Shown here piece by piece: positions 1,269 to 47,723 of a stretch of DNA of 47,723 nt. A program made the translations under genes and the position numbers. The notes beneath the pieces were generated by a model. That model saw only the letters and a list, made by a program, of their open reading frames with translations, was not told where the DNA came from and made no database searches. How positions within the stretch are numbered: position 1 is the first letter of the stretch; every line of letters begins with the position of its first letter. Source of the stretch: a virus; IMG/VR virus record IMGVR_UViG_3300036985_003617, positions 1-47,723 of that record; one strand, given 5' to 3'.

Positions 1269-1826
1269 TCAGTCCTCGTGATTCAGTTTGCAGCCGTTTG
1301 TCCCGCGCGAGCAGGTGCAAGACGCGAATGGATCGATCGCGCACGCCTCGATGTAGATGTCGCAGAGGCTCCCCACCATGATCGGGAGCGTCCACGTCTG
1401 CCGCTCGACGTTGCGCGCTGTGAAGCGATAGCACCTGTCGCGACGGTCGCAGACTTCGAGGTGGATGCGCCCCTGGCACTTGGCAGTGTCGTTCACGGCA
1501 ACTGCCTCCACGCCGCCGAGCACATGCCGACGCCTGCGAATGGGTCCATCAGTTGCCTTCCTTGCCATCGCCTTCTGTCGCCAATAAGCCCGCGCGTGCG
1601 CTGGGGAAATCGCGGTGAAGCACGCTAGCTTGTCAGGTTCGGGAAGTGAGCGCATCTTCTGAGCCAATGTCATGGTCGAGTCCATCGGGTTCTCTCCTGG
1701 TTGTTCGTGGGTTATCGCCCAGCATGCTGGGCATTCGAGGATGTTGAGGTTGTTGCGCGCGAGCTTGCCAGAGCCACACCATCGGCAGGTGTCGAGCGGC
1801 ACAGCCGGGCGCGGGTAGGGGATCAT
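1269..1826 (-). CDS. Cys-rich putative zinc-binding protein, MIPYPRP family
   Basis: This encodes 185 residues; the ATG start at 1826 overlaps the RusA stop as ATGA. The N-terminus MIPYPRPAVPLDTCRWCGSG contains a CxxC knuckle, followed by CPAC about 18 residues on, so a zinc ribbon is likely. A second Cys cluster (CDIYIEACAIDPFASCTC) lies near the C-terminus. The N-terminal pattern is shared with the protein at 46399-46806 (MIPFPRPSLPHGACTSCGAT), pointing to a duplicated zinc-ribbon module. Function is unknown. Confidence 0.7.
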   Translation of the reverse strand: MIPYPRPAVPLDTCRWCGSGKLARNNLNILECPACWAITHEQPGENPMDSTMTLAQKMRSLPEPDKLACFTAISPAHARAYWRQKAMARKATDGPIRRRRHVLGGVEAVAVNDTAKCQGRIHLEVCDRRDRCYRFTARNVERQTWTLPIMVGSLCDIYIEACAIDPFASCTCSRGTNGCKLNHED

Positions 1827-2200
1827 TCGCAGAGGAAGACGCGATCGGCTCGCAAAGTCACGTTGACTTGGCCATCCTTCGGGAGCACCTCGCCAAACTC
1901 ACACGTCACGCGGCGAATGATCTTGTCGTCGAAGCGAAGGCCGTCAGCGATTCCATCTTGGCCAGACTTCATGCGCGCGTGCAAGTTGTCGAGGGCATAC
2001 CGACGATTGTCTGGCGGGAAGAACCAGTAGGTGATCGCGAGCTTGGCGTCGAACGGGAACAGGAAGGGAGTCCAGGCACGACTTGCGATGCTGGCGCAAG
2101 CCATTCGGTACATGGCAATCGCTTCGCTTTTCTGGCCCCAATGGCCGCGCTTGTTTGGCGAGAGGAGCTTCGACGGCCACGGAAGTTGAAGAGTCAGCAT
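1823..2200 (-). CDS. rusA: RusA-like Holliday junction resolvase
   Basis: This encodes 125 residues from the ATG at 2200 (MLTLQLPWPSKLLSPNKRG). RusA-family features: an N-terminal PxPxS-N-K-R segment and the core PPDNRRYALDNLHARMKSG, then DGIADGLRFDD, which supplies the acidic and lysine catalytic residues (D64, D71, K78, D86, D91/D92 by my count). RusA dimers cut four-way junctions, which suits its position downstream of the YqaJ exonuclease and RecT-like gene. The reading frame stays open 18 codons further upstream, but the shorter start matches family length. A second, unrelated resolvase of RuvC type is encoded at 6723-7184. Confidence 0.88.
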   Translation of the reverse strand: MLTLQLPWPSKLLSPNKRGHWGQKSEAIAMYRMACASIASRAWTPFLFPFDAKLAITYWFFPPDNRRYALDNLHARMKSGQDGIADGLRFDDKIIRRVTCEFGEVLPKDGQVNVTLRADRVFLCE

Positions 2201-2277
2201 TGGAGAAAGTGGCCCGTGCGGGACCAAGCCCGACCCGCACGGGCCAGCGCACACAAAGAACGAGCAGCCTCCCCCGG

Positions 2278-2565: not shown

Positions 2566-2765
2566 GGGTAGATGTAGGGTCGCTTAGCGTGCGGCGATGG
2601 GCTGCCCACGCCGTGGAAGGAGAAGCGGCAGTCGTCGAGCACTGAGCCGCACAGCGAGCACTTCGCCGCGCGCTCAACGGCGATGTTGTCGTGCCCGCAC
2701 TTGTCGCAAGTGTTGAACTTGAACGGAGCGGTCGCCTCCGGTTTGCGTTCGATGCGATTGGTCAC
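2562..2765 (-). CDS. Small zinc-ribbon protein
   Basis: This encodes 67 residues from a GTG at 2765 that overlaps the RecT-like stop (GTGA), which decides this start over longer open frames upstream. It contains CDKCGHDNIAVERAAKCSLCG, a four-cysteine zinc ribbon (CxxC...CxxC). Co-translation with the RecT-like gene suggests a DNA-transaction accessory role, but this is inference only. Confidence 0.75.
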   Translation of the reverse strand: MTNRIERKPEATAPFKFNTCDKCGHDNIAVERAAKCSLCGSVLDDCRFSFHGVGSPSPHAKRPYIYP

Positions 2766-3622
2766 GGGTTGGATCCCGGCTCTCCAACCATCGCGTCGAC
2801 CACCGCCTTCTCCTTGTCGAGAGCCGTCGACAGCACTTCGAGGTTGGCGATCGACAGGTCGCTGATGCGTCCTTGCGGCAAGTTGTTCGCAGCCATCAAG
2901 GCGAACACGTTGTCGCGGGTCAGGCCGAGAGCCTTGGCCTTGGCTGCGCAGTCCTTCGCCATGGTTTCGATCTTGATTGCGGTCTCGTCGACCGCCGCGC
3001 CGACGATGGCGGCAACCTTCTCGCTTGCGGTGCCTGTTGGCGGCAGCGAGGGCAAGCCCGACATCTCGGCATCCTTGATGATCTCGTCCATCTCCGAGGT
3101 CTCGTAGCAGCCGAACATCACTTCGGCGGCGAACTTTCGCCCTGCGCTTGTCACTGCGCGAGCGGTCAACATCGTCTCGGGATACTTGCGCCAGTTGTCC
3201 TTGCCGTTCCACAGCCCGGCGGTCATCGCGCGCTGCTTGTCCCATGGCTCTTCGTGAGACTCACCCTCTGGGTTAACCAGGCGGCACACCACCTTCTCGG
3301 GTCCGCTCACCGGGAACGACACCTTGTAGCCAGCAGATCGCAACCGAGCGACCCAGAAGTGGTAGCTAGCGACGACGTGGCCTTCAACGATGTGGAAGGC
3401 GCGGAAGCTCGCCATCGGACTGATGCCAAGCTCTTGACCCGCCATGATCGTCGCGAGGATCATCCCAGGGTTGCCAAGGCAGTTCTTCGGAATCATGCCG
3501 GAGGCGTTCTTGACCATCTCCGCGAACTGCATCGCCTCCGCGATTGTAGCGAAGTCGGTGAGCATCTTGCGCGGCTGCAAGGCGCGGACGGGAGACGAGA
3601 CGGTTTCTGGTAGCTGGCTCAT
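2762..3622 (-). CDS. RecT-like single-strand annealing protein
   Basis: This encodes 286 residues from the ATG at 3622, whose ATGA overlaps the exonuclease stop. RecT-type features: an N-terminal helical segment with MIPKNCLGNPGMILATIMAG and ELGISPMASFRAFHIVEG (the typical ...G..P....a....i..G region), and WRKYPETMLTARAVTSAG followed by RKFAAEVMFGCYETSE, the ..p..m...ra.t...r..fpe...g.y...E pattern of phage RecT proteins. A helical tail follows. It is expected to bind ssDNA and anneal strands generated by the adjacent YqaJ nuclease. Assignment is by motif pattern and by the nuclease-annealase gene pair. Confidence 0.82.
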   Translation of the reverse strand: MSQLPETVSSPVRALQPRKMLTDFATIAEAMQFAEMVKNASGMIPKNCLGNPGMILATIMAGQELGISPMASFRAFHIVEGHVVASYHFWVARLRSAGYKVSFPVSGPEKVVCRLVNPEGESHEEPWDKQRAMTAGLWNGKDNWRKYPETMLTARAVTSAGRKFAAEVMFGCYETSEMDEIIKDAEMSGLPSLPPTGTASEKVAAIVGAAVDETAIKIETMAKDCAAKAKALGLTRDNVFALMAANNLPQGRISDLSIANLEVLSTALDKEKAVVDAMVGEPGSNP

Positions 3623-4545
3623 GGATTCTTGTCCTTCCACGCCTTGGTGACGTGCATCTGGCGAAAACTGGCTGGTGCGACGGTGTAGCCAGCGCGGGCA
3701 ATGGTTTTGAGGGTGACCACGGGCTTGCCCTCCTCGTCGACGACGATCTCGTTCGCGCCGATAGCTTCGTGCAGCGCGAAGTCGTGTGCTTCGACTTGTG
3801 CCTCAAGCTCCTTGATGGCCTTTTTCACTTCGGCGCGCATCAGCAACCGCCCGACGATCTCTGCCGTCAACGGCGTCGTCTGGCCCTTCGCACTCCACAC
3901 GAGGCGGCGAGCATCGGCGAGGTCCACAGGCTTCGGAGGGGTCTCGCCGAGCACGTGCTGCTGCCAGAACTCATCCACCTTGTCGCGGATCGTCTTCGCC
4001 AGAGTTGGGCTGTAAGCGACCGACAGCACGCGGAGGCCGATGGCTTCCACGATCTCGGCTGGCGTCAGCCCCATCAGGTCGCGCATGCCGGTGCTGTGCG
4101 GCCACACGAGCACAGGGTAGTCGGCCTGATCCACCTCGTGCATGTCCATATACCACGTCCCTTGGCAGTCGTAGTAGAGAGGCACGGTGTCAGTACCGCT
4201 CTCGCCCCACTCGCTGCCCATCGTTGTCGCCTTGGCTTCAACGATGCGCTTCCAGCCACCAACCTCGGCCATCGCATCAACGTTGGCGCGACGGTAGCCC
4301 TTGCGCAGCGTCTCAAGCGACCACACCTTGGAGCCCTCGGGCAGCGTCTTGGCGTAGGCCGCGATGACCGGGGCCTCAAACCGCTTGCCCGCGCGCATCG
4401 CTGGTGTCTCTTGCTTGTCATCTTGCTTGAGTACCTTCGAGCGCCAGACGTCAAGAGGGGTCGAGAACGGGGACAGCCCCATGATCGCAGCGACTTCGCT
4501 GCCGCCGATTCCGCTGAATCGGTCTTCGGTTGTGGTGGTGGTCAT
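3619..4545 (-). CDS. YqaJ-family phage exonuclease
   Basis: This encodes 308 residues from the ATG at 4545 (MTTTTTEDRFSGIGGSEVAA). YqaJ/PD-(D/E)xK nuclease features: IGGSEVAAIMG with LDVW, a conserved FEAPVIAAYAK segment, then the catalytic set ANVDAMAE (D90) and IVEAKA (E103-x-K105), followed by YYDCQGTWYM, the conserved Q-containing helix. It probably acts as a 5'-3' dsDNA exonuclease that feeds the RecT-like protein encoded next. The frame is open much further upstream, but that extension overlaps the region downstream of the gene at 4814 and lacks protein-like sequence, so the short start is preferred. Confidence 0.87.
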   Translation of the reverse strand: MTTTTTEDRFSGIGGSEVAAIMGLSPFSTPLDVWRSKVLKQDDKQETPAMRAGKRFEAPVIAAYAKTLPEGSKVWSLETLRKGYRRANVDAMAEVGGWKRIVEAKATTMGSEWGESGTDTVPLYYDCQGTWYMDMHEVDQADYPVLVWPHSTGMRDLMGLTPAEIVEAIGLRVLSVAYSPTLAKTIRDKVDEFWQQHVLGETPPKPVDLADARRLVWSAKGQTTPLTAEIVGRLLMRAEVKKAIKELEAQVEAHDFALHEAIGANEIVVDEEGKPVVTLKTIARAGYTVAPASFRQMHVTKAWKDKNP

Positions 4546-4681
4546 GGTGAGTAAGAGTGCCGTCTCTCCGGCTGTCACGTCCGCCGTAACCAGAAGGCTT
4601 AGGCGTTGTCCGCCCCGACGTTGGGCGGTTCCGATGGATTGGGGGCTCGGGTACTGGCCGAGACCAACCCATGATGGTCGG

Positions 4682-4816
4682 CTATTGTGGCTCGCTCCAG
4701 GCTGGTTCAGTGGTTCCGTGCGCTTCCTTGATGTAGCCTCGGATGTGGTCGTCGATACCGAGTCGAAGGGCTTCGTCGTAGGTGGCGAACTCGCCACCGT
4801 CACCGGAGCATTGTCA
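4682..4816 (-). other. In-frame continuation after the TGA at 4814
   Basis: Translating past the TGA in the same frame gives 43 residues without a stop, with ordinary amino-acid composition (ATYDEALRLGIDDHIRGYIK) and no start codon of its own near the TGA. It is best explained as the C-terminal part of the 4814-5059 gene rather than as a separate gene. The remaining 136 bases to the exonuclease start hold nothing else I recognise. Confidence 0.6.
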
Positions 4817-5059
4817 ACCGTGCCCGGTGTAGTCCTCACTCTCGATCGCGGTCCCGTAGTTGCCGTTCTTCAACTTGACGATGCACGCGCTGCTGTCTTC
4901 CGTCGCCCATTCTGTGCTGCTTGTCCACGCGACGCAGACGCGGTCGATGTCAGCCGTCTGCCACGGAACGGTTGCGTGATCCGAGCACAACATGGCTTGC
5001 CTCCATGTCTCTTCGGCCCACATGAACGCCTGCACTTGGGTCTCGGCGAGGTAGCTCAT
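4814..5059 (-). CDS. Hypothetical protein ending at an in-frame TGA (possibly interrupted)
   Basis: This encodes 81 residues from the ATG at 5059, which overlaps the upstream stop as ATGA. It ends ...IESEDYTGHG-TGA. The same frame continues for 43 protein-like codons to a TAG at 4682-4684 (QCSGDGGEF ATYDEALRLGID...). I recall, unverified, phage proteins with an uninterrupted DYTGHGCQC-type stretch, which would place a cysteine at the TGA. A TGC-to-TGA change, a sequencing error or stop readthrough are all possible. Function is unknown. Confidence 0.65.
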   Translation of the reverse strand: MSYLAETQVQAFMWAEETWRQAMLCSDHATVPWQTADIDRVCVAWTSSTEWATEDSSACIVKLKNGNYGTAIESEDYTGHG

Positions 5060-11366: not shown

Positions 11367-11671
11367 ACCCGCCACCCCGCGCTTTCGTAGAGCGCAAGCG
11401 ACAACGCGCCAAAGCCGAGCCATTCCATTGTGTCTTGCCGATTGGAGAACACGGCGAACTTGGTGCGCAGCTTGTCGGGCCGTGACGTCGTGCGCTGCGC
11501 AACGAAGCGGCCCTCGCTCGTGCGGTAGAGATCCAGCGCCGTATACCACTCGGCTTTGTCGTCGGTGCCGTCGCGACTCGTCGCCGTGCCGAGAAGCCAG
11601 CCGCGAAACGGCAATTCCTTGCGCCCGTCCGAGACAACAAAGTCGCATGCCTCTTGCAGGTGGTGATTCAC
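11363..11671 (-). CDS. Hypothetical protein
   Basis: This encodes 102 residues from a GTG at 11671 (GTGA overlap). The sequence is mixed, with FRGWLLGTATSRDGTDDKAE then WYTALDLYRTSEGRFVAQR, suggesting a small alpha/beta domain. No family is recognised. It is coupled to both neighbours in the accessory operon. Confidence 0.65.
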   Translation of the reverse strand: MNHHLQEACDFVVSDGRKELPFRGWLLGTATSRDGTDDKAEWYTALDLYRTSEGRFVAQRTTSRPDKLRTKFAVFSNRQDTMEWLGFGALSLALYESAGWRV

Positions 11672-12408
11672 GACGCCACCAGCCTATTTTCAATCAGGTC
11701 GCATAGGGCGGTTGCGTTGGACGCGTAGGCCGCGTTGGCCGCGTAGGACGCGTTGGCCGCGTTGGCCGCGTTGGCCGCCGCGTAGGCCGCCGCGTTGGCC
11801 GCGTTGGCCGCCGCGTAGGCCGCCGCGTTGGACGCGTTGGCCGCCGCGTAGGCCGCTTTGGCCGCCGCGTAGGCCGCCGCGTTGGACGCGTAGGCCGCCG
11901 CGTAGGCCGCCGCGTAGGCCGCGTTGGCCGCCGCGTAGGCCGCGTTGGCCGCGTTGGCCGCCGCGTGCAGGTCGCCATCGCCTCGCAGCGCGGCAACCAC
12001 TTGGGCGCACGCCGCTGCCACGGCGGGCCAATAGCTCGCGCCCTCACACACGGCCCGCGCATTCTCCGCCGCTCGCTCCACGGTGCCGACTAGCCACTCA
12101 CTTCGCAGCGTGCCATCGTTCACCACCTCACCCCATCGCGGGTGTGACAGTTGCGCCCCTAGGCGCTTCCCCCACGCCAACGCGGCGGCTGGCGTCTGGC
12201 CGTCGAATAGACCGACCACGACGTGCGCTAGCCACTCCGGCATCAGCCACGCTGGACAATTCGCGGCGTCGTTGATGCCTGCTGCGGCGCCGAGCCAACA
12301 GGCGACTCTGCGCCCGTCCATTGTGCCGTTCCATTCGTGCTGCACGAGCCGCCCTTCGGCGGCGAATGCCAGCACTCGGCGGCTGGCTTCCAGAAAATTA
12401 CTTTGCAT
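11668..12408 (-). CDS. Alanine-rich repeat protein (AAYAAAN tandem repeats)
   Basis: This encodes 246 residues from the ATG at 12408. The N-terminal 150 residues are an ordinary globular sequence (ACWLGAAAGINDAANCPAWL; EWLAHVVVGLFDG; LRSEWLVGTVERAAENAR). Residues about 150-235 are almost pure alternations of Ala with Tyr, Asn and Ser (AAYAAANAAYAAAYAAAYAS), followed by a short tail CDLIENRLVAS. The DNA repeat makes length changes by slippage likely. Putative immunity-type and phage proteins with similar Ala-Tyr-Asn tracts exist as I recall. Function is unknown. Confidence 0.65.
   Translation of the reverse strand: MQSNFLEASRRVLAFAAEGRLVQHEWNGTMDGRRVACWLGAAAGINDAANCPAWLMPEWLAHVVVGLFDGQTPAAALAWGKRLGAQLSHPRWGEVVNDGTLRSEWLVGTVERAAENARAVCEGASYWPAVAAACAQVVAALRGDGDLHAAANAANAAYAAANAAYAAAYAAAYASNAAAYAAAKAAYAAANASNAAAYAAANAANAAAYAAANAANAANASYAANAAYASNATALCDLIENRLVAS
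11703..11965. repeat. Tandem repeat of GCGTTGGCC/GCGTAGGCC units
   Basis: About 260 bp of short repeats (read on the plus strand as gttggccgc, gtaggccgc and gttggacgc in varying order, in 3-base register). They encode the Ala/Tyr/Asn/Ser tract of the 11668-12408 protein. The reading frame is preserved throughout. Confidence 0.9.
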
Positions 12409-14188: not shown

Positions 14189-14530
14189 TTAGAATCTAGT
14201 CGTGCCGCGCTTGCCGCAGGATCCGCACCGATGCCTACCTAGGGCACAATCAATTCGCACATCACGGTAGCTGTTGGCGTGAGGGTATTGAGCGTTGCAG
14301 TAGCTGCAACGAGACCACCGCACCGATGGGCCGGTAGCGCCATCGTGCGAAAGCCATTCGCCATCGACGAAGCACGCGCCGCAAGCGTCGCACGTAGCGC
14401 CGGATTCCTCCGCTGCGGCATCCGCGAACACGGGCGATGGCTCGTCATGCGATCGGCCCTGCGATGGCTTGCAGTCGTTGCAAAAGGCGGCGCCATCGTG
14501 GTGCCACGCGATGATCGTTGCGGCGTGCAT
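14189..14530 (-). CDS. Zinc-ribbon hypothetical protein
   Basis: This encodes 113 residues. Several Cys pairs are present: FCNDC, TCDACGACF, RCSYCNAQY and RCGSCGKRG, enough for two zinc ribbons. The 151 bases between this gene and the next upstream gene hold only a 16-codon coupled reading frame, which I do not call. Confidence 0.6.
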   Translation of the reverse strand: MHAATIIAWHHDGAAFCNDCKPSQGRSHDEPSPVFADAAAEESGATCDACGACFVDGEWLSHDGATGPSVRWSRCSYCNAQYPHANSYRDVRIDCALGRHRCGSCGKRGTTRF

Positions 14531-14681
14531 GTTGTTATTGGGTGCCCGATTGCGCCGCGGAATTGCGGCGCGCGCCCTGGGCGGGGCAATGGGGCGCGAC
14601 TATCTGGCCGTCGCGCTAGGGGCGCTAAAGATACTCAGAAAGTTTGCGGGGGCGCGCGGTCCCATGCCGTGGTGCGCGCCG

Positions 14682-14948
14682 TCACACCACACCCACTTGC
14701 GGCGCTAGGTAGAGCCTGCGCCGTCCCTGCATCAACATGGCGCGGGATTCTTCCGCGTGCCATTGTTCAACGGCCGCAGCATCGGACGGGAACCGGACGA
14801 GGTAACAACCGGCGTCCCACGCCAGCCCGGCTTCTCGCCACGCTAGGCCCGTCTTGTCCGCGATCGCGTCTAGCACGTCTGCTTGGCGACCGAACGGGAC
14901 GGGACCATGGCCGAACAGTGTTCGCACCTTGCGCTCGCGGGGCTTCAC
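14682..14948 (-). CDS. Hypothetical protein, last gene of the GGAS cassette series
   Basis: This encodes 88 residues from GTG 14948, translated from the repeated junction signal (GGCGGTGCATC before GTGA). The sequence has VRTLFGHGPVPFGRQADVLD and AWDAGCYLVRFPSDAAAVEQ. It does not itself end in GGAS, so it marks the downstream end of the series. Confidence 0.6.
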   Translation of the reverse strand: MKPRERKVRTLFGHGPVPFGRQADVLDAIADKTGLAWREAGLAWDAGCYLVRFPSDAAAVEQWHAEESRAMLMQGRRRLYLAPQVGVV

Positions 14949-15217
14949 GATGCACCGCCCGGCTCGTCTGCCGTCCCCGGCAAGGGAGCGTTGCAATGGT
15001 CGCAATAGCTCCAGTCGTCTACTTCGCACGTTGCCATGGTGCCTACAACGTGCCAGCCGTCGCCGGGGACCGATTCCGCGATGGATTTAGCCTCGCTTTT
15101 GCAACACTTGCGACATAGCTCGCCGCCGTCGTCAGTGATGGCCCATCGCTCGTACCCGCCGGGCCATGCGTAGGGGGTTGCAGCGATATCGGCCGCTATT
15201 GTGGCGGGAGCGTTCAC
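14945..15217 (-). CDS. Conserved phage zinc-binding protein, GGAS cassette
   Basis: This encodes 90 residues from GTG 15217. ATPYAWPGGYERWAITDDGG, then ELCRKCC and SYCDHCNAPLP, gives two CxxC pairs. I recall the AYAWPGGYP...DGG..LC..C...CDHCG pattern from many phage genomes, without known function. It ends EPGGAS, and that tail contains the ribosome-binding site for the next gene. A longer frame exists upstream (MQGRCLV...), but it overlaps the preceding gene's 3' end and is rejected. Confidence 0.65.
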   Translation of the reverse strand: MNAPATIAADIAATPYAWPGGYERWAITDDGGELCRKCCKSEAKSIAESVPGDGWHVVGTMATCEVDDWSYCDHCNAPLPGTADEPGGAS

Positions 15218-15390
15218 GAGGCACCGCCCTTGCAAACAACCTCAACGTCGCTGTCGTTGTCGCAACCGCCGCAGGTGCTCGTACCGTCGCAGTCGTCGCA
15301 CAGTGTGCCCGCCACGCCGATTACGGTCGCAAAGCAGTTGCGGCAGGCACAGTCGCGGTAGATCGACGCTAGCGGCTCGTGGAGGCTCAC
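15214..15390 (-). CDS. Cys-rich 58-residue protein, GGAS cassette
   Basis: GTG start at 15390. CACRNC, LCDDC and TCGGC in 58 residues indicate a compact zinc-binding protein. It ends VCKGGAS at the repeated GTGA junction. The higher cysteine content than its neighbours suggests a structural zinc role. Function is unknown. Confidence 0.6.
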   Translation of the reverse strand: MSLHEPLASIYRDCACRNCFATVIGVAGTLCDDCDGTSTCGGCDNDSDVEVVCKGGAS

Positions 15391-15617
15391 GATGCACCGC
15401 CTTGCGCATCGGCGAGCGAGATTGCCCCGCGTGCTAGGAGCCGCTCCAATTCCGCCGTCGAGTACCGCTTCGTATTGCATCGCCCGTCAATATCTCTTAG
15501 GGCGAACAAATGGCGGCCGTCGCCCACGAGTTCGTACGGCTTTCCGCCGCTCCCGTCTAGGGCATGCCATCGAATGCATGATCCGCCACGGATGGCCGAT
15601 CGGTCGGGAGCGTTCAC
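15387..15617 (-). CDS. Hypothetical protein, GGAS cassette
   Basis: This encodes 76 residues from GTG 15617. Segments SCIRWHALDGSGGKPYELVG and HLFALRDIDGRCNTKRYSTA suggest a small beta-rich domain. It ends DAQGGAS. Coupled to both neighbours by GTGA overlaps. Confidence 0.6.
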   Translation of the reverse strand: MNAPDRSAIRGGSCIRWHALDGSGGKPYELVGDGRHLFALRDIDGRCNTKRYSTAELERLLARGAISLADAQGGAS

Positions 15618-16003
15618 GATGCACCGCCTTGTGCCCAACAACGGTAGACGTCGGCAAGGTAGTCTTTGGTGGTTTCGTCGCCACGCCCCGTCACCGCAAC
15701 GTCGATGCCATCGAACGTCGGGCGGATCGTCACACGGTAGTTTCGCCAGCCGTCGTATCCACCGTGCTCGTTCATGCGGTGGAATGCCACATTGAACACA
15801 ATCCGCTTGCCGCCGCTAGCCGAGGTAGTGTCATCATCGAGCACCGTTCCGTTGTCGATGCCACTGCCGCTAGGCGCTTCGCCCATGATGCGGTCGATGG
15901 TTGCCTCGTGCTTAGTCGCCCATTCGGTGTTGCCCGATCGCTCACAGTTGCCGAGTGCCTCCAAGGCGGAGGCTAGGGCGGCGATGTTGGTGCGAGCGTT
16001 CAC
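15614..16003 (-). CDS. Conserved phage hypothetical protein, GGAS cassette
   Basis: This encodes 129 residues from GTG 16003. It contains SGSGIDNGTVLDDDTTSASG, RIVFNVAFHRMNEHGGYDGW and DVAVTGRGDETTKDYLADVY. The FH-MNE-G-YDGW core and the closing G(R)...KDYL.D.Y recur in many phage proteins as I recall; no biochemical function is known. It ends WAQGGAS. Confidence 0.68.
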   Translation of the reverse strand: MNARTNIAALASALEALGNCERSGNTEWATKHEATIDRIMGEAPSGSGIDNGTVLDDDTTSASGGKRIVFNVAFHRMNEHGGYDGWRNYRVTIRPTFDGIDVAVTGRGDETTKDYLADVYRCWAQGGAS

Positions 16004-16356
16004 GATGCACCACCTTGCTCGTCTAGCGTGCGATACATCGGCGCAAGGAACCGGATCGCGGCATCGACCGCCGCGAGCATGTGGCGGATACCGTCGCGTC
16101 GGTGCCCATCGGTCCTGCCGAGCCCGTCGCGCGAGATTCCCGCACGCTCGCGGAGCACGGCTAGCCCATGCATCATAATGTCAGACACGGCGTCGGCAAC
16201 CACGTCCCGGCCGTACGATTCTTCGTCATCGCGGAACGCCAGCACCAACGCTCGCACCACGTCGCTCGCGATGGTATAGCGGTTGGCCGCCTCGCCGTAC
16301 TGGTGTTCGGCGATGCCGGTCGAAATGTCGATCCCGTCTTTGCGGGACAGGCTCAC
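16000..16356 (-). CDS. Hypothetical protein, GGAS cassette
   Basis: This encodes 118 residues from GTG 16356, mostly helical (VVRALVLAFRDDEESYGRDV; IRHMLAAVDAAIRFLAPMY). It ends LDEQGGAS. It is preceded by the junction with the best Shine-Dalgarno match (AAGGGAGGT). Confidence 0.6.
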   Translation of the reverse strand: MSLSRKDGIDISTGIAEHQYGEAANRYTIASDVVRALVLAFRDDEESYGRDVVADAVSDIMMHGLAVLRERAGISRDGLGRTDGHRRDGIRHMLAAVDAAIRFLAPMYRTLDEQGGAS

Positions 16357-16838
16357 GAGGCACCTCCCTTGCACGTCAACCAGTGGCTTTCGGCTTGGTC
16401 TACCATGGCCACGGCATCAACCATTGTCATGCGCCGTTCGCCACCTTGTACGGTGGCGTAGACAGCCTCCAAGCCAAGCCCACCAAGCCGCCTTAGCACG
16501 TCGCTACAACGTGAGGGGGAACCGTTCTCCTCTCCCGCCTTGCGCATCACAACGCGCATCCTCTTAGCCAACGGCAGCGAGCGTTCCACTTCCCGTAATG
16601 AACCGTCCAAGCGTGGTTCGTCGCATCCGTAGACGTGCGAAACCTTCCCGTTCTCGGCATGCCGTTGCACCGGCAATTCTGCACTGGCGATTGATCCGCT
16701 TAACGGTGCGCAATCGTCGGCGATGGTCGCATCGTGCCACAATCGCACGACGCTAAACGCGAACGCGAAGAACTGCCCGTGCCTCTCCGGAAGGCGAGGG
16801 ACGAACGCGATCAAGCGGGGTTTGGTCATCTTGGGCAT
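16353..16838 (-). CDS. Hypothetical protein, first gene of the GGAS cassette series
   Basis: This encodes 161 residues from the ATG at 16838 (an ATG at 16829 is possible). Segments LIAFVPRLPERHGQFFAFAF, SVVRLWHDATIADD and RVVMRKAGEENGSPSRCSDV are present. It ends LTCKGGAS. No Shine-Dalgarno sequence is clear before its start, in contrast to the following genes. It is the first gene of the leftward accessory operon. Confidence 0.6.
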   Translation of the reverse strand: MPKMTKPRLIAFVPRLPERHGQFFAFAFSVVRLWHDATIADDCAPLSGSIASAELPVQRHAENGKVSHVYGCDEPRLDGSLREVERSLPLAKRMRVVMRKAGEENGSPSRCSDVLRRLGGLGLEAVYATVQGGERRMTMVDAVAMVDQAESHWLTCKGGAS

Positions 16839-18300: not shown

Positions 18301-18804
18301 ATGGTGATGCCGATCGCGATGACGCCGGAGTTTGAGGAGTCGCTCATCGAGCATGTGTGCGAGGGCGGCACGATTCGGGCGTGGTCCCGCCTGAAAGGGA
18401 AGCCGAGTTACAGAGCGGCGTATCGGCACATCATGCGCTCGCCCGAGTTTGCCAAGGCGATGGACCAGGCGCGCGAGATCGGGCACGAGGCGATTGCGGA
18501 CGACTGCCTGATGATCGCCGACGACAGCGGCAACGACGTGACGTTTGACCAGAACGGCGAACCGCGTGCGGATGCCGAGGTGGTTGCGCGGAGCAAGCTG
18601 CGGGTGTGGGCGCGGCTAGAGTTGCTGAAGAAGTGGCACCCGAAGAAGTACGGGGACAAGTCCTCGCTTGAGCACAGCGGCCCCGGCGGCGCTCCGATTG
18701 CGATCAGTGACGAAGCGGCGGCGAAGCAGATTGCGTCGCTGCTTGCGGTGGCGGCTGCGCGGGCGAAGGCGGCAGAGCCGGAAGCTGACGGAGATGCGTC
18801 GTGA
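18301..18804 (+). CDS. terS: Terminase small subunit
   Basis: This encodes 167 residues. HVCEGGTIRAWSRLKGKPSY then RAAYRHIMRSPEFAKAMDQA is the DNA-binding HTH region of a common small-terminase family. VVARSKLRVWARLELLKKWH and PKKYGDKSSLEHSG is its hallmark ending. It should recognise the packaging site and regulate the large subunit. The ATG at 18301 is used; in-frame ATGs at 18307 and 18319 are alternatives. One gene lies between it and the large subunit. Confidence 0.85.
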   Translation: MVMPIAMTPEFEESLIEHVCEGGTIRAWSRLKGKPSYRAAYRHIMRSPEFAKAMDQAREIGHEAIADDCLMIADDSGNDVTFDQNGEPRADAEVVARSKLRVWARLELLKKWHPKKYGDKSSLEHSGPGGAPIAISDEAAAKQIASLLAVAAARAKAAEPEADGDAS

Positions 18805-45556: not shown

Positions 45557-46106
45557 CCTTGTGGCGGATCAGCCATTCCTTCACGGATGGCGCGAGGCGG
45601 TCGTAGATCGGCGTTGCGAACTCGCTGTCGTGCAGTATCTCCCACTCGGCCCAGGTCCATAGCTTCTCGGCTGCCGCCGTGGTCCGCGCCGCAGCCTTGA
45701 CGCACACCTTGCACTGGCCGTCGCGCCGCGTGTTCCACCGCTTGCCGTGGCCATTGGGGCAAGTCTCCAGCGCCTCCATCTCGCGGATCTCGGCGGTGCG
45801 CGCCTTGCGCTTGCGGTTCTCGTTGAGCCGCCTGACCTGATCGCACTTCGACGAGTGCATGGCGCGGCAGGCGTGGCAGACTCGATGCCCTCGCTCGGTC
45901 ACTGTTGAGCCAACTTCGGCGTAGCGGTGGTGGCGGCGCGGGCAGTGCGTGCGCTCGGCTGGCTTCGTGCTCTCGCCCATGCGCCTGAGCTTCAGGCGGA
46001 CGGCGTCGTAGGTGTTACCTGTCTGCGTTGCGATCCACGGAACGCTGTGGCCCTCGGCGATCCACGCGCGCAGTTGGGGCTCGTTCCAGTCCAGAAGAAC
46101 GTTCAC
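45543..46106 (-). CDS. Zinc-finger protein with HTH-like N-terminus
   Basis: This encodes 187 residues from GTG 46106 (GTGA overlap). Residues 7-26 are WNEPQLRAWIAEGHSVPWIA, identical to the module at 46-390. CPRRHHRYAEVGSTVTERGH then RVCHACR, and CPNGHGKRWNTRRDGQCKVC, are two C..GH/H...C..C clusters of the kind found beside phage HNH nuclease domains, but no HNH catalytic core is seen. It is convergent with the late operon. Confidence 0.65.
   Translation of the reverse strand: MNVLLDWNEPQLRAWIAEGHSVPWIATQTGNTYDAVRLKLRRMGESTKPAERTHCPRRHHRYAEVGSTVTERGHRVCHACRAMHSSKCDQVRRLNENRKRKARTAEIREMEALETCPNGHGKRWNTRRDGQCKVCVKAAARTTAAAEKLWTWAEWEILHDSEFATPIYDRLAPSVKEWLIRHKVKPE
46041..46087. repeat. 47-bp repeat encoding the WNEPQLRAW module, copy 2
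   Basis: Exact match to 317-363; see copy 1. Confidence 0.9.
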
Positions 46107-46402
46107 GGTTTCACCTCGAACCCGGTCGCGATCTGCCGGGCCATCCGCTTGCCGATGCGTTCCATCTCGGCGGTGATCGAGCGGCGCAGCACGTCGTCCA
46201 TCAGATGCCTTAGCCCATCGCTGGATAGCAGCACGTTCAATTCGGCGAGCAACCGCGATGTCAGTTCGGGGGCTGCGTCTGTCATCGCCTTCTCGATGAT
46301 CTCGTCGGCGACGCCACGCGAGCGGATGACGTTCGATCCGAACAGAATCGACTGGACCTTCTTGCGAAGATCGACTTCGTCGATCTCGATGTCAAGTTTC
46401 AT
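46103..46402 (-). CDS. Hypothetical 99-residue protein
   Basis: MKLDIEIDEVDLRKKVQSIL then helical segments (DEIIEKAMTDAAPELTSRLL; RHLMDDVLRRSITAEMERIG), ending GFEVKP. The ATG at 46402 overlaps the upstream stop (ATGA). The start of the same gene is found at 49-1. No family is recognised. Confidence 0.7.
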   Translation of the reverse strand: MKLDIEIDEVDLRKKVQSILFGSNVIRSRGVADEIIEKAMTDAAPELTSRLLAELNVLLSSDGLRHLMDDVLRRSITAEMERIGKRMARQIATGFEVKP

Positions 46403-46480
46403 GGCTTCACCTCTTGGTCTTTCGCGCGCAGCCGCCAATCGCTGTCAAGACGGAAGCCGTCAGGTAGCCTCGACTCGCCG
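46354..46480. repeat. 127-bp direct repeat, copy 2 (internal)
   Basis: Identical to 1-127; see copy 1. From here the sequence continues to 47723 along a path different from bases 128 onward. Confidence 0.95.
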
Positions 46481-46806
46481 CCGGGCGGAACGACGGGCGC
46501 AGGCGCGGAGAACGCGAACTCAACTTTCTCCCGGTTCCGCGCGATCCGCGCATCCCGCGCCCGCTCGCGGACCACTTGCTCGATCTTCGGCCCGCCCGCG
46601 TAGATGCGTCGCTCACGCTCAGCCACGTCGGCAACCGACATGCGCGCACGCCGAGCGACACATGACGCACACGCGCACGCATCGCACGCGCGGTCGGCGC
46701 ATTGGTCGACGCCACAGTGCGGGCACTTCGGATCGGTGGCGGGTGGAGTCGCGCCGCACGAGGTGCATGCACCGTGCGGCAGCGATGGGCGCGGGAAGGG
46801 AATCAC
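46399..46806 (-). CDS. Cys-rich zinc-ribbon protein, MIPFPRP family
   Basis: This encodes 135 residues from GTG 46806 (GTGA overlap). CTSCG...CPHCG, then CADRACDACACASC, indicate zinc binding. The N-terminus resembles the 1269-1826 protein and the last 26 residues equal those of the 46-390 protein, so it combines parts of two left-end genes. Function is unknown. Confidence 0.65.
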   Translation of the reverse strand: MIPFPRPSLPHGACTSCGATPPATDPKCPHCGVDQCADRACDACACASCVARRARMSVADVAERERRIYAGGPKIEQVVRERARDARIARNREKVEFAFSAPAPVVPPGGESRLPDGFRLDSDWRLRAKDQEVKP

Positions 46807-46943
46807 GAGCCGTCGTCCTTCTCGTCACCAACGACCTCGAACACGGCGACCATCACGGCGGCCCTCAGTTCCTCGTCCGTCAGCGACGTGTCGAGATCGA
46901 TGGTGACTCGTTTGCGCTGCGCCTTCGCGTTGGCGGCGGTCAT
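46803..46943 (-). CDS. 46-residue acidic protein
   Basis: ATG at 46943 (ATGA overlap with the previous gene). MTAANAKAQRKRVTIDLDTS then LTDEELRAAVMVAVFEVVGD is protein-like. Function is unknown. Confidence 0.5.
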   Translation of the reverse strand: MTAANAKAQRKRVTIDLDTSLTDEELRAAVMVAVFEVVGDEKDDGS

Positions 46944-47071
46944 ACGGGCACCGCCTGACGCAACGCGCGCGCACGATCCGTAGATCGCCGCTTGGCGAGA
47001 ACGCGACACGCTCTGCAACCACGCCCTTCGCGCAGGCGCGCGGACGTCTGGTCGTTCTTGAGGTCTTGCAT
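46940..47071 (-). CDS. 43-residue basic protein with CxxC
   Basis: MQDLKNDQTSARLREGRGCR then ACRVLAKRRSTDRARA. A G-run before the ATG at 47071 may serve as ribosome-binding site and the stop overlaps the next ATG. It is the first gene after the repeat-rich gap. Confidence 0.45.
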   Translation of the reverse strand: MQDLKNDQTSARLREGRGCRACRVLAKRRSTDRARALRQAVPV

Positions 47072-47566
47072 GCCCCCGATCTAGCGGGGCGGCTGTTTTT
47101 CCAAGCGAACCCGCACGCCGCGCACGCACGAGTAGGTCGATGGCGGCGGGTTAGCCGACTGGCACGTCATCAGCTTCGGCGCGGGCAGTGGCGCCTCCAT
47201 GCTGGTCCACGACGACGAGCAGTCGTAGGAATCAGTCCACTCGCCCGGCTCGAAACAGGGGTCGGGTGTAACAGAAGGCGAACGATCCGACCGGGTGGGC
47301 TCTGGTCGTCGAATCCGTCAAGATCCGTCAAGGCTCGTTTTGACGGATTTACTGACGCAAGTTGTTGTTGTGTATAGTAGTTATTGAATCCGTCAATATA
47401 TTCAAGACTACTATAGGTATCCTCAACCCCAGGATGCCCACCACCACCTACCCTAGTGGGGCCTTGATTTCTTGACGGATTCGGCAACCTCGGCCATTTG
47501 GCTAGGTTACGTCAGTAAATCCGTCAATTGGCGTCTTGACGGATCTTGACGAATTCGGATCCCTGA
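47072..47566. promoter_or_regulatory. Repeat-rich intergenic region with TTGACGGAT elements
   Basis: At least seven TTGACGGAT/ATCCGTCAA elements occur between 47311 and 47545 in both orientations. TTGACGGATTTACTGACG (47340-47357) and its perfect reverse complement (47510-47527) form an 18-bp inverted repeat around an AT-rich core with the direct pair tatagtagt/actactata (47372-47415). Candidate origin or operator region. A 39-codon frame at 47081-47200 (minus) is possible but weak. Confidence 0.5.
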
Positions 47567-47723
47567 CTAGGAATCGCGTGCTTCGCTGGTTGCGACGTAG
47601 ACCGTCGCGGGCTGGGTAGAGGTGCCGCGCTGCTGGGTCGCGACCTGTCCCGACTCGATCAGGGTCTGCACGATGTCCTTGCGGTCGCCGCGCCGCAGCC
47701 ACTGGGTGGCGCGCGTCAGTCGG
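47567..47723 (-). CDS. 3' end of a gene cut by the window (winged-helix-like C-terminus)
   Basis: The last 51 codons of a leftward gene read RLTRATQWLRRGDRKDIVQT then LIESGQVATQQRGTSTQPAT, VYVATSEARDS. The helix-turn-helix-wing pattern at the very end is common in large phage primase/helicase-type (DUF3987-like) proteins, but the identity cannot be settled from this fragment. It lies on the path beyond the 127-bp repeat. Confidence 0.45.
   Translation of the reverse strand, partial: RLTRATQWLRRGDRKDIVQTLIESGQVATQQRGTSTQPATVYVATSEARDS

Follow-up and report, generated by a model that had tools for sequence, protein, structure and literature searches.

Seven small genes stand in a row on the minus strand of the window (the whole stretch of DNA analysed, a 47,723 bp IMG/VR virus record with a G+C content of 63%), and their six successive borders carry one joint, GG(N)GGTGC(A/C)TC-GTGA, in which the end of one gene also holds the ribosome-binding site and the start of the next. 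On balance, we lean towards reading this array as an operon of accessory genes, translationally coupled, that was extended by short-homology recombination at its own joint. The array runs from 16838 down to 14682 and comprises the following genes:

16353..16838, minus strand: array gene 1, 161 aa, ATG start, ends CKGGAS; no homologue found in the search
16000..16356, minus strand: array gene 2, 118 aa, GTG start, ends EQGGAS; no homologue found in the search
15614..16003, minus strand: array gene 3, 129 aa, GTG start, ends AQGGAS; belongs to a family found widely in phages
15387..15617, minus strand: array gene 4, 76 aa, GTG start, ends AQGGAS; no homologue found in the search
15214..15390, minus strand: array gene 5, 58 aa, Cys-rich, GTG start, ends CKGGAS
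14945..15217, minus strand: array gene 6, 90 aa, GTG start, ends EPGGAS; phrog_18452, with a weak Endonuclease VII-like match (PF02945, below cut-off)
14682..14948, minus strand: array gene 7, 88 aa, starts with GTG at the last of the shared joints; lacks the GGAS tail and closes the coupled array

Successive genes overlap by four bases, GTGA, which provide the stop of the upstream gene and the start of the downstream one. The five segments between junctions are all open in the matching frame (P ~8×10−8, from the stop frequency of the window), and homologues exist for genes 3 and 6; the reading frames of the array are therefore real. Two long plus strand ORFs, 14279-15118 and 15392-15976, were rejected as genes, given their low third-position G+C, unlike that of reference genes, and the homologues of minus-strand genes 3 and 6. 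A first-pass annotation of this DNA had placed the Shine-Dalgarno sequence of each next gene inside the last codons of the preceding one, and this was borne out. Same-strand neighbours, NTGA overlaps and a Shine-Dalgarno sequence inside the upstream gene are the marks of a translationally coupled overlap operon, and because of the 4 nt overlaps and the position of the ribosome-binding sites, the seven genes are very probably co-transcribed and coupled. Between 14000 and 18000, no promoter or terminator scored better than in shuffled sequence. Once the tails are removed, the array proteins have no significant mutual similarity and no body-to-body likeness, in agreement with the earlier statement that they are unrelated. 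The product of gene 6 (14945-15217), 90 aa long and with Cys residues, hardly fits its PHROG label 'DNA ligase' (phrog_18452); the Pfam hint of Endonuclease VII is below cut-off.

The six junctions noted at first pass, with GGAS at the end of each upstream product, are all present. The sequence GGNGGNGCNTCNTGA occurs 6 times, always on the minus strand and nowhere else in the 47.7 kb, whereas shuffled sequence gave 0.10 on average and 2 at most; likewise, the GGAS-stop ending is found six times in the window, each time in the array. Listed from position -17, the joints are:

16353..16373, minus strand: junction J1, TGCAAGGGAGGTGCCTC-GTGA
16000..16020, minus strand: junction J2, GAGCAAGGTGGTGCATC-GTGA, then ACGCTC
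15614..15634, minus strand: junction J3, GCACAAGGCGGTGCATC-GTGA, then ACGCTCCCG
15387..15407, minus strand: junction J4, GCGCAAGGCGGTGCATC-GTGA
15214..15234, minus strand: junction J5, TGCAAGGGCGGTGCCTC-GTGA, then ACGCTCCCG
14945..14965, minus strand: junction J6, GAGCCGGGCGGTGCATC-GTGA

The longer form AAGG(C/G/T)GGTGC(A/C)TC, first ascribed to every junction, is exact in only three of them (15387, 15614 and 16000). Those at 15214 and 16353 read AAGGGCGG and AAGGGAGG respectively, one base longer before GG, and the junction at 14945 reads CCGGGCGG. Conservation across the joints is confined to about -17 to +10: pairwise identity is 73% over -17..-1, 43% over +5..+19 and 24-28% further upstream, with background values on either side. 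Both variable positions in the last 11 bases of the joint are third codon positions. When the flanks are compared, the upstream affinities (J1-J5, J2-J6, J3-J4) and the downstream ones (J2-J3-J5, J1-J4) are discordant over stretches of 20-25 bp, a small sample; short as they are, this fits a reshuffling at the joint.

Part of the joint is explained by translation. A GGNGG motif six bases ahead of the GTGA overlap necessarily reads Gly-Gly in the upstream frame, so that the two glycines of the tail are a by-product of the ribosome-binding site. The spacer TGC(A/C)TC is not such a by-product. Of 105 further GGNGG junctions of equal spacing, a set from which those matching the search motif were excluded, none has it, 3 have TGCNTC, and 21 have TGC after GGNGG. 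Among 59 AAGGAGGTGCNNNGTGA junctions of IMG/VR stretches with open frames on both sides, 5 had an NTC spacer. Sets of six drawn from other phage GGNGG junctions were never as alike as the array in 20,000 draws, and 10 of 20,000 were when GGNGGTG was also required; these null figures are approximate, the junction pools being mechanical (NTGA and open frames) and not made of curated genes. We conclude that the identity of the joints exceeds the needs of ribosome binding, and that a short border sequence is shared beyond both chance and those needs, as boundary-sequence mosaicism supposes. A motif no commoner than ribosome-binding and codon constraints give, which the first-pass annotation had named as the outcome that would undo its reading, is not what these counts describe.

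Gene 3 belongs to the one family that could be examined at depth. Its homologues are found in phages of Sphingobium, Brevundimonas, Achromobacter, Ruegeria and Microcystis; 51 IMG/VR loci were retrieved by the family profile and 47 distinct relatives compared. Homology stops near residue 120 of 129, none of the 47 relatives ends in GGAS, and 14 overlap any downstream ORF. The GGAS tail is thus foreign to this family, in keeping with the initial view of the shared tail as a product of the junction. The family (loci L302-L352) is widespread and has no name; its core reads PSGSG...YDGW...TPS..., and it was annotated once as 'antitoxin' (Rhodobacteraceae phage MD06), on a basis not stated. Homologues of genes 3 and 6 also occur together, in the same order and orientation and within ~1.3 kb, in two unrelated and distant phages, Lacusarx and contig L346. 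The genes between them differ, and from this comparison it follows that gene content changes between conserved neighbours. The first-pass annotation had asked whether content varies while the junctions are kept; in these two phages content varies, and the joints have diverged too. Because no gene 3 relative carries the tail, and because of these diverged joints, the joint is a property of the operon of the window phage, not of its genes, and not an ancient shared border.

In its terminase, the window phage has 60% identity with Phage zth2-2 and Limnohabitans phage DC33, and 52% with Bordetella phage BPP-1. Because of these identities and of the portal (head-tail adaptor), major head protein and tail genes on the plus strand, the phage is a BPP-1-like podovirus. 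The record of phage DC33 (L291, PQ492659) carries Inoviridae in its taxonomy line, yet its terminase is that of a tailed phage, like BPP-1's, and the classification seems mistaken. No near neighbour was found in the collections searched (by DNA, and by terminase in IMG/VR and GTDB genomes), and none of the relatives sought by DNA, by array proteins or by terminase has the array, so that a direct comparison of swapped genes came to nothing. A contig (L058) with replication genes and one motif copy in common with the window phage was taken as a coincidence.

Some other features of the window were recorded in passing. An exact 127 bp repeat lies near both ends (1-127 and 46354-46480), its length being a common assembly k-mer size; the genome is probably a circle or a permuted molecule of ~46,353 bp that has a side branch, 46481-47723. 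On the minus strand, at 46103, 46399 and 46, there is another set of similar joints, smaller than the array, which read GAGGTGAA(A/G)CC-(G/A)TGA and give EVKP tails, the copy at 46 falling within the end repeat; two genes of that operon share a 59 bp block (305-363 and 46030-46088) at 97% identity. Finally, dense 9/12 bp repeats (GCCGCGTTGGCC...) occupy 11707-11983, inside the ORF 11668-12408, whose product is probably an alanine-rich repetitive protein.

The joint motif, a 17-mer, was retrieved from 65 IMG/VR stretches, mostly as a single copy and mostly at gene junctions of unrelated phages. Its extended form was not found elsewhere in IMG/VR, and the idea of the extended joint as a mobile sequence was rejected. 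Neighbouring junctions were alike (at least 11 of 17 positions) in 19 of 106 cases in the motif-bearing phages, compared to 1.4% when the two junctions lay far apart on one contig and 0.7% for random ones; here the phages, but not the neighbours, were picked by the motif, and an open-frame NTGA site taken at random is a true gene junction less often than a chained neighbour is. Among the terminase relatives, chosen regardless of their junctions, 0 of 268 consecutive pairs reached 12/17. The pattern of alike neighbouring joints is therefore recurrent, but not universal. Several early-operon joints of BPP-1 itself (L292, 33702-40858) look mutually similar, with GAGGTG(C/G)TGGC before the start, a weaker case. 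The pair L028/L063 was discarded as two phages for comparison, the two being nearly identical where they match.

A second array was found in a different phage, G001 (L287/L353; IMGVR_UViG_3300020180_000533), and as a junction array it is more striking than that of the window. It has ten GG-GG-GC (GGA-type) stop/start joints, whose tails (GGAS, GGAA, GGAT, GGAK) and spacers (GCGTC, GCGAC, GCCTC, GCCGC) vary. Its first 9 kb hold 11 pairs of duplicated DNA blocks, and 7 of these 11 include a stop/start junction or border on one; the junction has the same position in the two copies, and beyond the block the genes diverge. Examples, in reverse-complement coordinates of L287, are:

288-330 and 1332-1374: duplicated block
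545-569 and 2709-2733: duplicated block
225-311 and 479-565: duplicated block

An exact 255 bp duplication is also present, as are duplicated gene starts (MSALDDLI..., MSAE...) on otherwise different genes. Such blocks are what recent recombination at joints would look like; the mechanism of G001 may apply to the window phage by analogy. Contigs L354-L356 were set aside as comparators, having one short stretch only in common with G001.

The window phage encodes general recombination functions that could act at its joints:

2762..3622, minus strand: RecT-like single-strand annealing protein, candidate recombinase (phrog_561, 2e-18)
3619..4839, minus strand: RecE/YqaJ-like exonuclease
1823..2254, minus strand: RusA-like Holliday junction resolvase (phrog_34, 1e-17)

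No tyrosine (PF00589) or serine site-specific recombinase, and no integrase or resolvase of that kind, was detected in the window. In the reading that we favour, the ~20 bp joint would descend from one ancestral joint, and would have been copied whenever a crossover within it inserted, duplicated or replaced a gene. The crossing over would proceed by general short-homology recombination, most likely with the phage's own RecE/RecT/RusA-type proteins. The last few codons of an arriving gene would be replaced by the joint, leaving a Gly-Gly-Ala-Ser tail on unrelated proteins; selection for initiation would keep GGNGGTG, while the identical spacer TGC(A/C)TC would be a trace of common descent. The route and the enzyme, as well as exchange at the window joints, are what we infer. 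Several findings count against this reading: with no close relative, there is no before/after pair for a swap at a GGAS joint; variable positions at third codon positions are equally expected from selection on the peptide; some null sets are as alike once GGNGGTG is given; and the terminase relatives have no alike junctions. The term cassette array, used at first pass, suits the architecture; exchange in the window phage itself is deduced. The independent G001 array shows recombination blocks centred on junctions. The junction as a conserved exchange site is not supported: its extended form is nowhere else in IMG/VR, the junctions of distant relatives have diverged, no swap between close relatives was found, and no cassette integrase was detected. 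A bolder and doubtful extension is that in some phages operon joints may be self-propagating: each would be a coding, ribosome-binding landing site, at which a captured small gene is expressed at once and supplies the next site, by RecT-type annealing and free of any integrase.

Other origins of the joint were weighed. It could be a functional translation-initiation element, a ribosome-binding site and spacer recognised by a phage or host factor, that sets or co-regulates translation of the array genes, much like the Start-Associated Sequences (SAS) of cluster K mycobacteriophages, and is kept identical for its function. The joints do lie exactly at starts, their conservation passes the Shine-Dalgarno core into the spacer, as argued for SAS (PMC3203893), alike neighbours recur in unrelated phages, and the plus strand gene at 18801 is preceded by a partly similar joint, GGAGATGCGTC-GTGAAC. 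However, the spacer is not shared across phages, the extended joint was not found elsewhere in IMG/VR, other starts of the window phage have different spacers, often AACCC, and the spacer of G001 varies; we hold this explanation to be unlikely. Plain convergence would need only a 63% G+C genome and a Shine-Dalgarno sequence fixed 6 nt from the GTGA overlap, forcing Gly-Gly-x-x, with codon and base bias making up the rest. TGC after GGNGG in 21 of the 105 other junctions, and the mostly single motif copies in the 65 IMG/VR stretches, speak for it. It is already disfavoured by the random draws, by the concentration of identity between neighbours in motif-bearing phages, and by the other NTGA stop/start junctions of the phage, which match the array joints at a mean of 5.4 of 17 positions, against 12.3 within the array; we give it little credit.

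The array might also have arisen by tandem duplication, a small gene with its joint being repeatedly duplicated and the bodies diverging past recognition, with the ends left. Three products start with MNA(P/R) and two with MSL, and G001 has its 255 bp duplication and short duplicated gene starts. But the bodies have no mutual similarity, the gene 3 family is unrelated to its neighbours and lacks the tail, gene ends with no function should have diverged no more slowly than the bodies, and the upstream and downstream affinities of the joints disagree, all of which makes this quite improbable. Still harder to credit is that GGAS was itself selected, the tail being a peptide tag such as a signal for the stability of accessory proteins. 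Six identical tails, with the two variable bases at third codon positions, would suit it; against it, gene 7 has no GGAS, the tail varies in the analogous G001 array, and the joint is not freely variable, since it holds the ribosome-binding site of the next gene.

The boundary sequences of lambdoid phages are, like the window joints, short sequences at gene borders, and they were proposed to guide homologous recombination that makes mosaics. There the same border is common to different phages, whereas the window phage repeats one border at six successive positions in one phage. That phages recombine at such borders is an established proposal (Susskind and Botstein 1978; Clark et al. 2001, as cited in PMC3029335), although boundary sequences reportedly cannot be identified at most mosaic borders (PMC3029335). 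In the nin region of lambda the joints do not resemble each other: 1 of 45 pairs reaches 10/17. Boundary mosaicism would also show as different genes between identical borders; in the distant phages the content between genes 3 and 6 differs, and so do the borders. As to break points at borders, they are seen in 7 of the 11 G001 blocks, and the window has only discordant flanks. In mycobacteriophage Island3, genes 67 and 68 have ~60 bp in common at their 3' ends, and the relative Brujita has a single recombinant copy (PMC3029335). The likeness is that genes come or go when repeated gene ends recombine; Island3, however, has two copies, one event and a sequenced partner genome, and the window has six shorter copies that overlap the next start, with no partner genome.

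The SAS of cluster K mycobacteriophages is a repeated ~13 bp sequence that contains the ribosome-binding site before many unrelated small genes and is conserved beyond rRNA pairing (PMC3203893). The window joints are likewise a repeated sequence overlapping the ribosome-binding site upstream of many starts. SAS has a GGGATAGGAGCCC-type consensus, precedes mostly genes more than 50 bp from their neighbour, mostly with ATG, and is conserved among related phages (PMC3203893). Unlike SAS, the window joints have a different sequence, 4 nt overlaps and GTG, and belong to one operon of one phage, being absent from its terminase relatives. As in integron cassette arrays, promoterless genes stand in a row with a repeated joint between them and variable content; unlike integrons, the window phage has no detected tyrosine-recombinase cassette integrase (no PF00589 match in the window), and its joint is coding and ribosome-binding, with no intergenic room. 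G001 shares with the window GG-GG-GC joints at stop/start overlaps and GGAS-type tails, but its duplications spanning joints are longer and apparently more recent, and its genes are unrelated. The unusual feature of the window is iteration, one coding, ribosome-binding joint at six successive borders, best read as an iterated boundary-sequence mosaicism and not as an integron-like system. How phages gather many small accessory genes is an old question, for which border recombination was proposed decades ago. A border repeated six-fold, and a second phage with duplicated blocks at its borders, are concrete places to test it, and alike successive stop/start joints offer a simple signature for searching other phages.
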